Part shown: positions 40,612-47,450 of the stretch, in pieces
Numbering within the stretch: the first letter of the stretch is position 1
Layout of the letters: each line of letters begins with the position of its first letter
Source: Vreelandella azerica
GTDB taxonomy: Bacteria; Pseudomonadota; Gammaproteobacteria; Pseudomonadales; Halomonadaceae
Reading direction: 5' to 3'
Assembly: GCF_013112225.1 (NCBI RefSeq)
Contig: NZ_JABFHI010000004.1
Location: 372,001 to 436,000, forward strand
DNA: 64,000 bases
Position numbers and translations under genes: made by a program
The notes under the pieces: model-generated
The model's database searches: none
Seen by the model: only the letters and a program-made list of their open reading frames with translations
Told to the model about the DNA's origin: nothing

Positions 40612-41414
40612 TTAGAAAAACAGGGTTTTCAGCGCCTGGCCGGGGTCTTCTTCGCGCATAAAGGCTTCGCCGACCAGAAAACCGTTGATCTCATGGTCAC
40701 GCATCAGCTCAACATCGTCGCGGGTATGAATACCTGATTCGGTAATCACGGTCACGTCTGCGGGGATACGTGTCAGAAGGTCCAGGGTGGTATTCAGGCT
40801 GGTATCAAAGGTGTGCAGGTTACGGTTGTTGATACCCACCAGCTTGAGATCCAGCGCCAGCGCCCGTTCCAGCTCGTCACCGTCGTGAACTTCCACCAGC
40901 ACATCCATTCCCAGCTGCTGGGCCTGCTGGTTGAGATCGCGCATTCTGACATCATCCAGCGCCGACACAATCAGCAGAATACAGTCAGCGCCTATCGCCC
41001 GTGCTTCAGAGACCTGATAGCCGTGGGTGATAAAGTCCTTACGGATGACCGGCAGGCTGCAGGCATCCCGAGCGGCAATCAAGTAGTCTTCATGCCCCTG
41101 AAAATAGTCTGCATCGGTCAGCACAGACAAGCAGGCGGCACCGCCTTCGGCATAGCGCCTGGCAATCTCGGCAGGCTCAAAGTGCTCACGAATCACGCCC
41201 TTGGACGGTGAGGCTTTTTGATCTCCGCGATCACGGCCGGGTCGCCACTGGCGATCCGCTGGTTCAAGGCCTGAATGAACCCACGCGGGGCACTCTGATG
41301 CTTGGCCAGCGCCAGAAGGTCAGTTTCAGACACCGCCTCGCGGCGCTCGGCGACTTCCTGATCCTTGCGGGCCAGAATACGGGTAAGAATGGTGGGCGTT
41401 GCCTGATCAGTCAT
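40612..41414 (-). CDS. trpC: Indole-3-glycerol phosphate synthase (one apparent frameshift)
   Basis: Ring closure to indole-3-glycerol phosphate in tryptophan synthesis. The 267 residues (repaired) form a TIM barrel: [14 protein letters not shown] (substrate-binding Lys, about 51-64), [26 protein letters not shown] (catalytic Lys), [11 protein letters not shown] and [16 protein letters not shown] run 41215-41219 (plus strand) lacks one T, splitting the KKASPSKG motif; read literally the gene is two frames. It is a stand-alone TrpC, not fused to TrpF as in E. coli. It is last in trpG-trpD-trpC, 10 bases after trpD. Confidence 0.94.
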
Positions 41415-41424
41415 AGGGTCTCTC

Positions 41425-42444
41425 TTACTGTTTGAAGACGCTGGTGAAATGCGCCAGCTCTCGCAGTTTTTCCAATGGCAGGCCGGAAGCCTGAGCGTCT
41501 TGAGCGACCATCACGCCTTCCTTCAGGGTATCCGCCACACCGGCGCAGTAAAGCGCCGCACCGGCATTCAGCGCCACCATATCCGCCGCAGCCCCTTCGC
41601 CTGCCAGAGATGCTTTTACCAACTGAAGGCTTTCCGCCGCACTGTTAGCCTTCAGGGAAGCCAGGCTCTGGCGCTCGATGCCCAGGGTTTCAGGCTCAAT
41701 GGTGTAATGATGGATGGCACCGTCCTTCAGCTCTGCCACCAGAGTAGGCGCGGCCAGGGAGATTTCATCCAGCCCATCTTCGGAATGTACTACCATGACA
41801 TGGCGGCTACCCAGCTGTTGCAACACCTCAGCCATCAGCGGCACCAGCTCAGGCGAGTAAACCCCCAACACCTGATTCGGCGCACCGGCCGGGTTGGTCA
41901 GCGGCCCGAGAATATTGAACAGGGTACGTACCCCCATCTCGCGGCGCGGGCCAATGGCATGGCGCATGGCCGGGTGATGATTGGGGGCAAACATGAAGCC
42001 TACGCCAACCTGCTCGATACAGCGGCTGACCTGCTCCGGGTTGAGATCCAGGTAAATACCGGCAATATCAAAAAGATCCGCACTGCCTGATGAAGACGAC
42101 ACACTGCGGTTACCGTGTTTGGCCACATGCGCCCCGGCACCGGCGGCAACAAAGCTTGCCGCCGTGGAGACATTGAAAAGATTGGCACCGTCGCCCCCGG
42201 TGCCAACAATATCAACCACATTGCCGGTATCCAGAGTCACCCGCTTCATCAGCTCGCGCATCACCTCGGCCGCTGCGCTGATTTCAACCGCGCTCTCGCC
42301 TTTCATTGCCAGCCCCACCAGCAAGCCGCCAATCTGGGCATCGGTCGCCTCACCGGTCATGATCTGACGCATCAAGGCGTGCATCTGGTCAAAGGTCAGA
42401 TTTTCGCGCTGCATCACAGCGTTAATGGCATCTCGCATGAGCAT
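41425..42444 (-). CDS. trpD: Anthranilate phosphoribosyltransferase
   Basis: Attaches phosphoribose to anthranilate. The 339 residues include the helical N-domain MRQIMTGEATDAQIGGLLVG, the PRPP/metal site VGTGGDGANLFNVSTAASFV (about 80-99), KHGNRSVSSSSGSADL and the anthranilate-site region HHPAMRHAIGPRREMGVRT with FNILGPLTNPAGAPNQ. Not fused to TrpG, unlike E. coli. Start ATG 42444, with GGAGG 11 bases upstream (a second ATG at 42438 is possible). trpG lies 37 bases upstream. Confidence 0.95.
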   Translation of the reverse strand: MLMRDAINAVMQRENLTFDQMHALMRQIMTGEATDAQIGGLLVGLAMKGESAVEISAAAEVMRELMKRVTLDTGNVVDIVGTGGDGANLFNVSTAASFVAAGAGAHVAKHGNRSVSSSSGSADLFDIAGIYLDLNPEQVSRCIEQVGVGFMFAPNHHPAMRHAIGPRREMGVRTLFNILGPLTNPAGAPNQVLGVYSPELVPLMAEVLQQLGSRHVMVVHSEDGLDEISLAAPTLVAELKDGAIHHYTIEPETLGIERQSLASLKANSAAESLQLVKASLAGEGAAADMVALNAGAALYCAGVADTLKEGVMVAQDAQASGLPLEKLRELAHFTSVFKQ

Positions 42445-42481: not shown

Positions 42482-43071
42482 TCAGCTACGTTTGAGGAAA
42501 TTGGCCAACAGCTGGTGGCCCTGACGGGTCAGGATCGATTCCGGGTGGAACTGTACGCCTTCTATATCCAGTTCACGATGGCGCAGACCCATGATCAGAT
42601 CCGGCGTCACATCATCGGCGCCTGTCCAGGCGGTAATCTCCAGGCACTCGGGAAGGCTGTCCTTATCCACTACCAGGGAGTGATAGCGGGTGACTTCCAG
42701 CGGGTTTTCAAGCCCGGCAAACACGCCTTGCGCATCATGCTGGATGGCCGACGTCTTGCCATGCATTACCTGAGGCGCGCGCACCACCTTACCACCATAC
42801 ACCTGACCGATGGCCTGATGCCCAAGGCATACCCCTAAAATAGGGAGCTTACCGGCAAAATGGCGGATCAGATCCATCGAAAGACCCGCCTCATTTGGCG
42901 TGCAGGGACCGGGGAAATCACGATATGGCTGGGCGCCAGGGCATCAATCTGAGCCAGGCTGATTTCATCATTACGATGTGTCAGCACCTCAGCGCCCAAT
43001 TCACCCAGATACTGGACAATATTGAAGGTAAAACTGTCGTAGTTATCCAGCATCAGAACTTTTTGTACCAT
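42482..43071 (-). CDS. trpG: Anthranilate/aminodeoxychorismate synthase glutaminase subunit (one apparent frameshift)
   Basis: Class I glutamine amidotransferase that feeds ammonia to TrpE, and probably also to PabB, since no separate pabA is seen. 196 residues when repaired: [20 protein letters not shown], then [14 protein letters not shown], nucleophile Cys in [16 protein letters not shown] (about 80) and the His/Glu pair in [11 protein letters not shown]. One base is lost at 42909-42914 (plus strand CCGGGG), splitting the PGPCTP motif. It is preceded by a 330-base gap with an intrinsic terminator, so trpGDC may have its own promoter. Confidence 0.94.
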
Positions 43072-43232
43072 AAGCCTTTGAAACTCCTATATCCAACTTT
43101 GAAAAGGCTCATGTATTACCCAGGTTTTTACCCAGATTGGTCATCGTGCCTTTCACTGATGAAAGCCATTGTAACGCCAGGTATGGATCGGTGCTATGCC
43201 AAGGTCTGTCAGACTTCATTCATGCCAAAAAC

Positions 43233-43262
43233 AAAAAACCCACGTCCTTTAAAGGAAGTGGG
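43233..43262 (-). terminator. Intrinsic terminator upstream of trpG
   Basis: On minus, CCCAC and TCCTTT (with one mismatch between) pair with AAAGGA and GTGGG, followed by six Ts (A run 43233-43238 on plus). It lies 140 bases after the phosphoribosyltransferase stop and 160 bases before trpG. It could end that gene or act as an attenuator. In the surrounding gap (43072-43401) I see no leader peptide with an ATG and tandem Trp codons and no strong promoter. Confidence 0.8.
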
Positions 43263-43401
43263 CTAATGATGTAAAACGCCTCTCGAGGACAGCGTATGGC
43301 TCATTGCTGCACATAAGTATCTTTTCTTGATATCGAAAATGATCAGCTTCCAGCAAGGTAATCTCGTTAGAAGCATTCAGCTCATCAGACGAGCCATCGC
43401 T

Positions 43402-44136
43402 TTAATAGAGTCTTGCCGCAGCGATTCGATTTCTGATGGCGTCAATTGATAAGGCTTTGCGGTAATGTCCCGCTTCACCTTGTGTGAGCGAGTCGATGCC
43501 AAAACCAAATTCTTGTTTGAGGAATTCATCTAACGGTACCCCATGTTTATTCCACAGATCGTGTCGCATTTTTTCACTGAGCGCAAGTTGCCCTGATTCA
43601 TTAAATCCTGTCAATGTCGTCGCACCAATAACCTGGCCTCCATGTGCCTCGATATGCCCTCTCAGCCCGGCTAAAGTACCGCCCATGGTCATGGTATCGT
43701 CAACAATCAAGTACTCCTGTCCTACATCCACCTCACCATCAAAAGCCGCGTGATTCGCCAAACGGTGGTCAGCGCTAGCGTTAGTATGGTAAGCCCTGAC
43801 CGTCTGCACAATTGTTGGGTTAACCTGCAAGCCAAAATACTTGGCAATGCGCGCCGCATAGGCAGCAGGTATCCTGTTGGCTCCCGTGGCTTCTTCTGCA
43901 ATCACGGGCACTATAACAGGCTGTCGAATCCCCATGATGATACCGACCTTGCCCAGGCAATCATCTGTGACAAGGTCATCCACCAACCTTTTAGCGGCGT
44001 CAATATCGCCTGACTTAGCAGCCATATAATCCGGATGTTTTTCAGCAGAACCCAAAGGAGTGGCAAAGGGAACTCGAGGGAAATCATCCTTCCAGGGCGT
44101 CCTGAAAAACGTCAGGAAATTGGTCGGTGGAGGCAT
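43402..44136 (-). CDS. Phosphoribosyltransferase-domain protein inserted in the trp cluster
   Basis: A 244-residue protein with a type I phosphoribosyltransferase PRPP loop, YLIVDDTMTMGGTLAGLRGH (about 143-162). Around it lie VGIIMGIRQPVIVPVIAEEA and a C-terminal GFGIDSLTQGEAGHYRKA segment. It resembles neither trp enzymes nor the pyrE, apt or upp groups closely enough to name a substrate. The DNA reads as more A/T-rich than its neighbours by eye. It sits on the trp strand, 101 bases after trpE and 330 bases before trpG, and is probably an acquired accessory gene. Start ATG 44136 is the first in frame; the ribosome site is weak. Confidence 0.75.
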   Translation of the reverse strand: MPPPTNFLTFFRTPWKDDFPRVPFATPLGSAEKHPDYMAAKSGDIDAAKRLVDDLVTDDCLGKVGIIMGIRQPVIVPVIAEEATGANRIPAAYAARIAKYFGLQVNPTIVQTVRAYHTNASADHRLANHAAFDGEVDVGQEYLIVDDTMTMGGTLAGLRGHIEAHGGQVIGATTLTGFNESGQLALSEKMRHDLWNKHGVPLDEFLKQEFGFGIDSLTQGEAGHYRKALSIDAIRNRIAAARLY

Positions 44137-44237
44137 GCCTTCACTTGTCGCCTATAGTATGAAAGTGAGTGTCAATAAATCACCGCTCTCATTTGCACAA
44201 ACCATGCCTGCATAGCTGCACTTTGCCAAGTTTAAGA

Positions 44238-45725
44238 CTAGCGCTCGTCCAGTCCACCTTCCGCCATGGCCACCGCTCTGAACAGGGCACGGCCCTTATT
44301 GAGGGTTTCCTGCCATTCAAGTTCTGGCACGGAGTCGGCGACGATACCAGCGCCGGCCTGAACGTGTACCTGACCATCCTTGATCACGGCAGTACGAATC
44401 GCAATGGCGGTGTCCATATTGCCATGCCAGGACAGATAGCCCACCGCACCGGAATAGATACCGCGCTTGACCGGTTCGACTTCGTCAATGATTTCCAGTG
44501 CGCGAATCTTCGGCGCCCCGGATACCGTGCCTGCTGGGAAGGTGGCGCGCAGCGCATCCATGGCGGTCAGTGACGGCATCAGCTGGCCGGTGACATTGGA
44601 GACGATATGCATGACGTGAGAGTAGCGCTCCACCACCATCTGGTCGGTCACCTCGACACTGCCCGTCTGGCTGATGCGGCCCACATCGTTACGCCCCAAG
44701 TCAATCAGCATCAGGTGTTCGGCAAGCTCCTTGGGGTCTGCCAGCAGTTCAGCTTCCAACGCCTTGTCTTCTTCCTCGTTCTTGCCGCGCTTACGGGTGC
44801 CTGCAATCGGGCGTACCGTAACCTCACCTTCTTCGGTGCGGGTCAGGATTTCCGGCGATGAGCCGACCACCTGATGATCGTCCAGATTGAGGTAAAACAT
44901 GTAAGGAGATGGATTCAGGCTGCGCAGCGCACGGTACAGATCCAGCGGCGGCGCCTGATAAGGCGTCGACATGCGCTGAGAGGGCACGCACTGCATGATG
45001 TCCCCGGCCAGCACGTATTCCTTGATTTTTTTCCACGGCCGCCTTGAAGCCTTCTTCGGTAAAACCGGATTCAAAGTCGCTTTCTTCAACGGCAGAGCGA
45101 CCGCTTTTTTGCTTTCAGGCCGGGTGTAGGCCTCGCGAAGACGCTGTTCGAGATGCTTAAGATGCTGCTCAGCCTTGGACAACGCCTCAGGTTCAGACGG
45201 GTCGGCATGGGTCAGCAGCGTCAAGCGCCCGGAGAGATTGTCAAACACCACCAGGTCGTTGCACACCATCAGCAGAATATCCGGCACCCCCAGGGGGTCG
45301 GGCTTCTCGACTCCACGCAGGCGGGGCTCAATATAGCGGATGGTGTCGTAGCCGAAATACCCTACCAGGCCACCGTCAAAACGCGGCCGGTTATCCAGTT
45401 TGGGCACCTTGAAACGCTGCTGGAACTGCTCGATCCAGTCCAAGGGGTCAGCTACTTCCGTCACCCCTTCAGACTCACCCTCGCGGATATGGCGCACGGT
45501 AAAACCGCGTACTTCAATGCGTTCCTGGCAAGGCAGGCCGATAATCGAATAGCGCCCCCACTTTTCTCCGCCCTGAACGGATTCCAGCAGGAAAGTCCAA
45601 GGCGTATTGGCCAGCTTCAGATAGGTAGAAAGCGGCGTATCCAGATCCGCCAGCACATCACGGGAAACAGGAATACGGTTATAGCCCGCCTGGGCCAGCT
45701 CGGCAAAGGTGTCTGGCGTCATCAT
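44238..45725 (-). CDS. trpE: Anthranilate synthase component I (hidden compensating frameshift pair)
   Basis: Makes anthranilate from chorismate with TrpG. 495 residues: N-domain with [19 protein letters not shown] (tryptophan feedback-site region LLES), then [48 protein letters not shown] and [16 protein letters not shown]. The frame is open, but residues of about 205-230 are wrong. T run 45105-45110 (plus strand) lacks a T and T run 45026-45032 has one too many. Restoring both replaces [20 protein letters not shown] by a family-like segment containing [20 protein letters not shown]. Its ATG overlaps the gph stop (ATGA). Confidence 0.94.
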
Positions 45726-46419
45726 CTGGCAATCCTTGTCGCACAGGGCGTTTCAGCGATTAAATCAAAAAGAGAATCAAGCAGCACATCAGGGGCACTC
45801 AGGGCAATCGGCTCACCGTGGTTATAGCCGTCTGGCAGCGCAAAGGTGGTAAAACCTGCCGCCTTGCCTGCCCCGACATCGTGGCGGGAATCTCCCACCA
45901 TGGCGCAATCAGCCGGGCTGACGCCGTATGTTTCAGCCGCATGCAACAGTGGCAACGGGTGAGGTTTCTTGTGCGCCAGGGAATCGCCCCCAAGTACAGA
46001 TCAAAATACTCTAACATGGCGAAGTGCTGCAAAATCGGCACGATAAAGCGTTCGGGTTTGTTGGTGATCAACACCTGGCGTAAACCCGCCGCACGCACAG
46101 CCCTAAGTACATCCAGGGTGCCTGGGTAGAGGCGGGTCAATTGATCAGGTGCTTCACTGTAGTAGGCCAGAAACGACTCATAAGTACGCGCATTGAGCGT
46201 CGTATCCGCCGCCTTACCCAGCGCCCAGCGCAGTGCGCGCTCGATCAGCACCGGCGCGCCGTTGCCTACCCAATCGCGCACATGCGCTTCTTGCGGCTGG
46301 GCAAGCCCTTCGTCTGCCAGTGCTTTCTGAACCGCGACGGCCAAATCCGGCACCGAATCAATCAGAGTACCATCAAGGTCAAAGGCGACCAGTTGCTTGT
46401 CTTTCAGCTGTGCGTGCAC
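45722..46419 (-). CDS. gph: Phosphoglycolate phosphatase (one apparent frameshift)
   Basis: HAD-superfamily phosphatase that removes 2-phosphoglycolate. Motif I is [15 protein letters not shown] (about 13-27), motif [12 protein letters not shown] (about 115-124), motif III the Lys in [14 protein letters not shown], and motif [19 protein letters not shown] run 45987-45991 (plus strand) lacks one C; repair reads [15 protein letters not shown] and gives 232 residues, the family length. It lies between rpe (11 bases before) and trpE (overlapping ATGA), the common rpe-gph-trpE arrangement. Confidence 0.94.
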
Positions 46420-46430
46420 TGGCGCCTCCG

Positions 46431-47132
46431 TTATTGCCCTGCTTCAGCCAGTTTGGCGCGCATCTGGCTGATCACGCTGTCATAGCCGTTCGGATCATCG
46501 GCCTGATGGGCACTGAAAATAGCCGAACCCGCCACGAAAGTATTGGCACCCGCCGCCGCGACCTCAGCAATATTATCAACCTTGACGCCGCCATCCACTT
46601 CAAGGCGGATATCACGGCCAGAAGCATCAATTCTGGCCCGCGCTTCACGCAGCTTATCAAGCGTCGCGGGGATAAACGCCTGACCGCCAAAGCCGGGGTT
46701 AACGCTCATCAGCAGCACCATATCGATCTTGTCCATCACGTAATCAAGATAGGACAAGGGAGTTGCCGGATTGAAAACCAGCCCGGCCTTACAGCCGCCA
46801 TCGCGGATCAACTGCAGCGAGCGGTCGATATGCAGGGAGGCTTCGGGATGAAAGGTAATCATATCGGCCCCGGCATCAATGAAGCTACTGATCATCTGAT
46901 CCACTGGCGTCACCATCAAGTGAACATCAATCGGTGCAGTAACGCCGTGCTTGCGCAGCGCCTCGCAGACCATAGGGCCAATGGTCAGGTTAGGCACATA
47001 GTGGTTATCCATCACATCGAAGTGTACCCAGTCAGCGCCGGAGGCCAGCACCTTATCCACTTCTTCACCCAGACAGGCAAAGTTGGCGGAGAGAATAGAG
47101 GGCGCAATCAGAAAATCCCGTGGAGTGGTCAT
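46431..47132 (-). CDS. rpe: Ribulose-phosphate 3-epimerase
   Basis: Interconverts ribulose-5-phosphate and xylulose-5-phosphate in the pentose phosphate pathway. 233-residue TIM barrel: [17 protein letters not shown] (about 7-23), [17 protein letters not shown] (metal His and Asp), [24 protein letters not shown] and [12 protein letters not shown] with the second catalytic Asp. It is the first gene of the rpe-gph-trpE unit, which ties sugar phosphate supply to tryptophan synthesis as in many proteobacteria. Intact frame. Confidence 0.95.
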
Positions 47133-47345: not shown

Positions 47346-47450
47346 ATGGCATTTCCTGTTCTGCCTACCATCAACAACACCCGTCTGGGCGCCAGCCTGT
47401 TGGCACTGACGCTGGCAGCCAGCGTCTCTACCAATACGCCGGTCACCTGA
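47346..47450 (+). CDS. Short ORF encoding a signal-peptide-like 34-residue product
   Basis: ATG 47346 follows AAGGAGTTACAAG, a strong ribosome site. The product begins MAFPVLPTINNTRLG, then has a hydrophobic core ASLLALTLAASVS and stops after TNTPVT. That is the shape of a signal peptide with almost no mature part. It may be a real small exported peptide, or the 5' end of a gene truncated by deletion or base error. It sits in the 374-base gap between rpe and yajG. A TATAAT at 47456-47461, just after the stop, may be the -10 box for yajG. The rest of the gap is A/T-rich without other features. Confidence 0.45.
   Translation: MAFPVLPTINNTRLGASLLALTLAASVSTNTPVT

Follow-up and report, generated by a model that had tools for sequence, protein, structure and literature searches.

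A solitary mobile-element-type phosphoribosyltransferase gene in the trpE–trpG spacer of Vreelandella azerica

In the genome of Vreelandella azerica, a gene for a phosphoribosyltransferase (PRTase) is found between trpE and trpG, which raises the question of what kind of enzyme is encoded at this unexpected position, where the gene came from, and whether its product has anything to do with tryptophan biosynthesis. The locus was analysed within a stretch of 64,000 nt, here referred to as the window. There is a good probability that the gene is a free-standing PRTase domain of the type carried by phages and plasmids, recently gained in a variable trpE–trpG spacer, and that its product is a tolerated or newly recruited enzyme.

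Arrangement of the locus

Open reading frame (ORF) calls with translations place rpe, gph, trpE, the PRTase gene, a hairpin and trpGDC in this order on the minus strand of the window (Table 1), which bears out the gene order and strand given in a preliminary description of the sequence. While trpE was identified by a profile match, all other gene names derive from reading the translations. The gene trpC lies beyond trpD on the same strand. The trpE–trpG interval spans 1.17 kb, in which no second gene was found, and a consensus scan revealed neither a promoter nor a terminator in the short gap that precedes the PRTase gene. An RNA-family search of the window at the gathering threshold returned four tRNAs and nothing else, so that no trp leader family was found.

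Table 1. Features of the trp locus in the window (positions count from the first nucleotide of the window).
Feature	Position	Strand	Remarks
rpe	46431-47132	-	named from translation
gph	45799-46419	-	between rpe and trpE; frameshifted as read; named from translation
trpE, anthranilate synthase component I	44238-45725	-	left flank of insert; TIGR00564, 566.7 bits (cutoff 517.7)
trpE–PRTase gap, 101 bp	44137-44237	-	from trpE stop to PRTase start
solo type-I PRTase, mobile-element (polyvalent protein/KfrC N-terminal) family	43402-44136	-	244 aa
intrinsic-terminator-like hairpin and U-rich tail	43227-43263 (hairpin 43238-43263)	-	downstream of PRTase
trpG leader, 131 bp	43072-43202	-	76% identical to trpG leader of congener G007
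trpG	42482-43071	-	right flank of insert; frameshifted as read; open in congeners G034 and G017
trpD, anthranilate phosphoribosyltransferase	41425-42444	-	named from translation; relative in 81 of 82 genus genomes (E<=1e-80)

Downstream of the PRTase gene, ten base pairs with one internal mismatch form a hairpin of -14.8 kcal/mol (z -3.09; none of 200 shuffles as good) that is followed by the U-rich tail UUUUUGUUUUU. The U-tailed terminator suggested earlier is hence borne out as a structure, although the strict consensus terminator scan lists none at this position and a wider 81-nt fold does not stand out (z -1.15; equalled by 24 of 200 shuffles). The hairpin would end PRTase transcripts before trpG, and it probably came along with the PRTase gene.

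The assembly is a draft of 20 contigs and 3.42 Mb with 89% completeness, in which the window is part of a 446-kb contig. Between positions 40612 and 46419, trpG and gph are frameshifted and the start of trpC looks truncated. Across 25,145 sites aligned with the congeners G034 and G017, the window carries 18 deletions and 5 insertions of one or two bases that are private to it; G034, for which private deletions but not insertions were counted, has no private short deletion at these sites. Given these many private single-base indels of the window, the frameshifts in the trp locus look like assembly errors, and the readings of trpG, gph and trpC are probable sequence errors.

A domain family of phage polyvalent proteins and plasmid KfrC

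The ORF of the PRTase is intact and contains the motif LIVDDTMTMGGT. It scores 21.2 bits against Pfam PF00156, below the cutoff of 26.3, and no other Pfam family was matched; NCBIfam matches are weak, mostly APRT- and OPRT-like, and all far under their cutoffs. With these sub-cutoff scores, a PRTase of a trp or standard salvage type was ruled out, in agreement with the initial assessment of the gene. Sequence searches for relatives of solved structure likewise yielded weak APRT, PurR and OPRT matches (best E 0.0023).

Much closer relatives are encoded by mobile elements. The PRTase is matched by PHROG 22413 (E 6e-62), and 77 viral loci with the domain were confirmed in IMG/VR, the best of which (69% identity) lies in a 2280-aa ORF of contig L073. 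In each of the 42 of these 77 loci whose ORF context was examined, the domain is part of an ORF that measures 433 aa or more from stop to stop, and this ORF exceeds 2,000 aa in 32 of the 42. Since all examined viral loci hold the PRTase within larger ORFs, the nearest relatives, with 64-69% identity, are single domains of phage polyvalent proteins of approximately 2,300-2,700 aa. The one relative in genome contigs, with 66% identity, is embedded in a protein of 2688 aa from Marinobacter iranensis. This protein appears to belong to a prophage and also carries InPase and LPD38 domains as well as a below-cutoff ART-PolyVal match; the TrpE of this genome is 64% identical to that of the window. A phage search added two Moraxella phages, in one of which the domain occupies the end of a protein annotated as coat protein. 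Among plasmids, 157 records match the PRTase, and many of the top 40, with 46-48% identity, are annotated as kfrC/KfrC. The respective gene adjoins KfrA, KfrB and a ParB-family gene in pUZ8002, and a DNA-binding protein, a KfrB-domain gene and ParA/ParB in pAcX50c, while pAeca3, another plasmid with a relative, is typed IncU.

The C-terminal segment GFGIDSLTQGEAGHYRKA of the window protein, which had been proposed to mark an uncommon PRTase subgroup, indeed has counterparts in phage polyvalent proteins (GYGIDSLTQGEAGHFRKA) and in KfrC of an IncP plasmid (GYGIDRLTQGEAGHLRAA). The phylogeny that had been called for was computed from 55 sequences with IQ-TREE and FastTree. The window protein and three phage domains form a group (SH-aLRT 99.4, bootstrap 100; FastTree 0.991), in which the branching order among the closest three sequences is supported at 43.6/76 only. 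Next to be added, at 83.4/96 (FastTree 0.836), is a KfrC clade of five members (100/100 on its own; FastTree 0.999), and the phage domain L075 joins the assemblage of window, phage and KfrC sequences at 99.7/99 (FastTree 0.998). As judged from these comparisons, the PRTase belongs to the "invasive element" (polyvalent-type) PRTase family. It is thus a further member of an already described enzyme family, whose domain and solo forms have been known since 2017, and related solo PRTase domains are widespread in phage and conjugative contexts according to Iyer et al. 2017 (PMC5512222).

The window protein resembles the PRTase domain of phage polyvalent proteins not only in sequence, but also in its domain limits, its DDT motif and a predicted ComF-like fold. 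In contrast to polyvalent proteins, which combine several domains in one polypeptide, the 244-aa window protein has a single domain, and its gene is chromosomal, furnished with a terminator and situated outside any recognisable phage or conjugative element. A similar relation holds for KfrC of IncP and IncU plasmids (RK2/RA3), whose N-terminal region of about 240 aa is of the same PRTase family (46-49% identity) and shares the C-terminal LTQGEAGH and DAIRDRI segment. Unlike KfrC, the window protein ends after the PRTase and lacks the C-terminal dimerisation domain through which KfrC binds KorB and VirD4, and its gene has trp genes instead of kfr or kor genes as neighbours. Since the relatives around the window protein in the tree are parts of larger proteins, loss of the remaining polyvalent gene is the simplest reading of its solo state, albeit not a proven one.

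An AlphaFold2 model built from 44 sequences (pLDDT 88.6, pTM 0.87) finds its best solved structural match in ComF of H. pylori (Z 12.0, rmsd 2.9 over 153 residues), yet at only 15% sequence identity, followed by OPRT and APRT chains (Z 9-10). In Foldseek, too, ComF is the top match (E 2.7e-6), ahead of the defence toxin ShosT (E 1.4e-4), though the TM-scores are low. The ComF match agrees with the connection to ComFC made by Iyer et al. 2017 (PMC5512222). The product is expected to adopt a type-I PRTase fold, with PRPP-Mg bound via the DDT motif. D146 and D147, the catalytic DD motif of type-I PRTases, are invariant in the 44 aligned sequences, and R125 is kept. Among 43 relatives, 42 columns reach 90% conservation or more, of which the window protein retains 40 (33/41 to 41/41 for the relatives themselves in leave-one-out counts). 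The two departures, His117 in place of an Arg found in 42 of the 43 relatives and Met151 in place of a Gln found in 39 of 43, affect conserved positions, so that activity may be reduced. The dN/dS of the window gene is 0.17-0.20 versus L073 and L074, with dS above 1, whereas no value was obtained versus L003; among three phage domains it amounts to 0.07-0.17. The low values can be explained by purifying selection on the phage side.

Recent gain in a variable trpE–trpG spacer

With one genome per species searched, relatives of the PRTase are sporadic. Counting its own genome each time, they were detected in 6 of 82 genomes of the genus (E<=0.001; best other 42% identity), 7 of 275 of the family (E<=1e-15) and 12 of 390 of the order (E<=0.001), eight of the latter being partial (G248, G285, G341, G392, G459) or weak matches of 59-84 residues (G383, G442, G297). 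G004 (L070), G092 (L071) and G086 (L072) possess solo PRTases of this family that are more distant (33-39% identity) and lie among genes that, read by eye, appear to be nucleotide-sugar and polysaccharide export genes; the relative in G086 is split between two ORFs. With a GC content of 0.503 and a GC3 of 0.484, the window gene has the lowest values of the 40 window ORFs of at least 200 aa, a few of which are likely spurious. Hence, the gene is neither conserved at this site throughout the family nor matched to its surroundings in codon use. The congener G034, which matches the window in four blocks over approximately 28 kb with 94-97% identity, lacks the PRTase gene and, like G017, has 78 bp between trpE and trpG. 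The gain thus looks recent. Acquisition by transfer, an inference of the preliminary description, is supported by this absence from G034, by the lowest GC and GC3 and by the grouping with phage domains. Of the clean empty site that was to be expected in a related genome, the absence of the gene in G034 could be confirmed, while the site itself is imperfect, with 60 bp at the junction in G034 versus approximately 1.15 kb in the window.

The spacer proves to be variable in the genus. A search for the native trpE (E<=1e-120) was positive in 23 of 82 genomes, of which 22, including that of the window, carry trpE and trpG on one contig and were counted; G096, with the two genes on separate contigs, was dropped and G098 was kept despite a trpE that reads as broken. 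In four genomes, the trpE stop is separated from the conserved trpG codon by 96, 96, 103 and 203 bp. The distance amounts to 1.1 to approximately 18 kb in 18 of the 22, that is, in 17 of the 21 others and in the window itself; five of these 18 were read separately, as the trpE-stop pattern had missed them. Spacers of other genomes are occupied by genes for formate-dehydrogenase-like subunits, by nuo genes, by a Fic/Doc gene or by an oppositely oriented gene of the ZnuA family; one example of each kind was verified in Pfam and the rest were read from translations. The Fic/Doc gene (PF02661) lies between trpE and trpG of G007 (L015, 1048-1476, minus strand), and a short ORF ahead of it could encode an antitoxin; it represents, besides the PRTase gene, a second small gene of conflict type in this position. 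Within this genus, the adjacency of trpE and trpG that had been taken as a usual arrangement therefore fails. Nor is it supported that the insert uncouples TrpE from TrpG supply: the two genes are separated in most congeners anyway, and the trpG leader past the terminator is matched in G007. Judged from these genomes, the trpE–trpG junction is a variable locus.

A parallel is found in Pseudomonas aeruginosa, where foreign DNA in the form of pyocins is also inserted between trpE and trpG. In contrast to this hotspot, the V. azerica spacer has received one small enzyme gene rather than a tailocin, and congeners hold metabolic and metal-uptake genes. As a separate observation, the trpE that belongs to the rpe-gph-trp locus is missing from 59 of the 82 genomes of the genus (E<=1e-120). 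The two inspected examples, G061 (L154, 4325-6441) and G026 (L155, 4981-7067), contain at another location a different TrpE with approximately 36% identity that directly adjoins its own TrpG-like gene and has TIGR01820 (TrpE-arch) as best model, below cutoff. These pairs are candidates for a replacement of trpE by an imported pair.

How the insert arrived can be approached via its flanks, for which a six-frame comparison with the collected loci recovered the trpG leader only and no phage or plasmid gene. Apart from its match in G007, this leader has shorter matches in G098 and G080, but none could be detected in G034 and G017, the closest relatives, which share another spacer. Thus, either the leader came with the insert or both relatives shortened theirs; a weak alignment between the G034 spacer and a portion of the window leader means that this spacer could be a shortened leader instead of a different spacer. 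As the leader resembles the one found in a different lineage of the genus, insert and leader may well have been imported together by homologous recombination, with the conserved trpE and trpG serving as flanks, rather than by site-specific insertion. Substitutions private to the window are more frequent in rpe-gph-trpE (114/3148 vs 346/21997 sites; Fisher P 4e-13). Changes private to G034 are also raised there (P 0.002), and a recombination-tract ratio test around trpE was not significant (P 0.08). Upstream of rpe, at window positions 47431-47442, a segment of approximately 3.7-3.9 kb with apparent sulfate-type ABC transporter genes is missing that is present in G034 and G017.

Possible role of the enzyme

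Expression of the PRTase would depend either on trpE transcripts that read through or on a weak promoter within the gap between the two genes. If, as proposed, transcription is then ended by the hairpin before trpG, tryptophan synthesis would be little affected. Clues to the reaction come from KfrC of RA3. In the experiments described in PMC8124265, its overproduction slowed growth of E. coli, strongly affected A. tumefaciens and had a weaker effect in P. putida, whereas C. necator grew unimpaired. The same account reports that a KfrC fragment of residues 1-249 could not be cloned without rearrangements, and that exchange of the DDT motif for AAA abolished the growth effect in E. coli. Together with the analysis of Iyer et al. 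2017, these data suggest PRPP-dependent chemistry, which is also the most likely reaction type of the window enzyme. In all likelihood, the host tolerates or has newly recruited an enzyme of mobile-element origin that acts on the PRPP/nucleotide pool.

Whether such an enzyme is still of use to the cell can be questioned. It may be the remnant of a phage or plasmid that once integrated here and has decayed down to one last open gene, and the lack of any other mobile gene in the insert flanks, the replacement of the conserved Arg117 by His and a branch that is longer in the tree drawing than those of the three nearest relatives would fit such a fate. However, the ORF is intact and stops right after the domain, the terminator-like hairpin follows next, nearly all conserved positions are kept and dN/dS is about 0.2, even if phage history may account for much of the latter. 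We therefore regard decay as possible but doubtful. Alternatively, the gene could have been domesticated as an anti-invader or growth-control enzyme that, when active, lowers PRPP or makes an unusual nucleotide, as might be supposed for the KfrC domain and the defence toxin ShosT. The DDT-dependent growth inhibition of E. coli by KfrC and the second rank of a ShosT structure in Foldseek point in this direction, as does a weak sequence match to the ShosT of PADLOC (E 0.018, 12.9 bits, 43 residues). Yet, the insert contains no second gene that could act as the partner known from ShosTA, the structural alignment with ShosT is poor (rmsd 14, TM 0.46/0.29), no confident match emerged from the defence library and growth of C. 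necator was not affected by KfrC, which renders an anti-invader or growth-control function rather unlikely. A reading of the locus as a defence system was rejected, the weak ShosT match being the only one in the defence library.

TrpD, the anthranilate phosphoribosyltransferase, uses PRPP. This shared substrate and the position of the gene between trpE and trpG, on their strand, would make an ordinary chromosomal PRTase that serves the trp pathway in PRPP supply or use beside TrpD conceivable. Such a role is highly improbable, however, as the gene is sporadic, with no relative above 42% identity in 81 other genomes of the genus, belongs to a family of mobile elements, shows a foreign composition and occupies a spacer that is filled by unrelated genes in other species. 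Slightly less remote, yet still a long shot, is the idea that a PRTase associated with phage invasion has been taken over as a stand-alone enzyme under expression of the trp locus and, by consuming or sensing PRPP, which TrpD requires as well, could tie tryptophan synthesis or growth to invasion by foreign DNA. In this case, small conflict genes would generally use the spacer as a landing strip, with the PRTase in V. azerica, the Fic/Doc gene in G007 and the pyocins in Pseudomonas as its occupants.

Taken together, the free-standing phage- or plasmid-type domain is preferred, and the product is most likely a tolerated, recruited or decaying mobile-element enzyme. The locus is a tidy case of gene traffic rather than a new system; a published description of this locus was not found in the literature listings. 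It provides a small, single-domain and chromosomal version of a family whose role was called enigmatic in 2017. As the relatives detected here mostly form part of proteins with more than 2,000 residues or of a plasmid protein whose overproduction retards growth, the small window enzyme is a handy candidate for assigning the reaction. At the same time, the trpE–trpG junction, known as a pyocin site in Pseudomonas aeruginosa, is seen to be variable in another bacterial genus as well.
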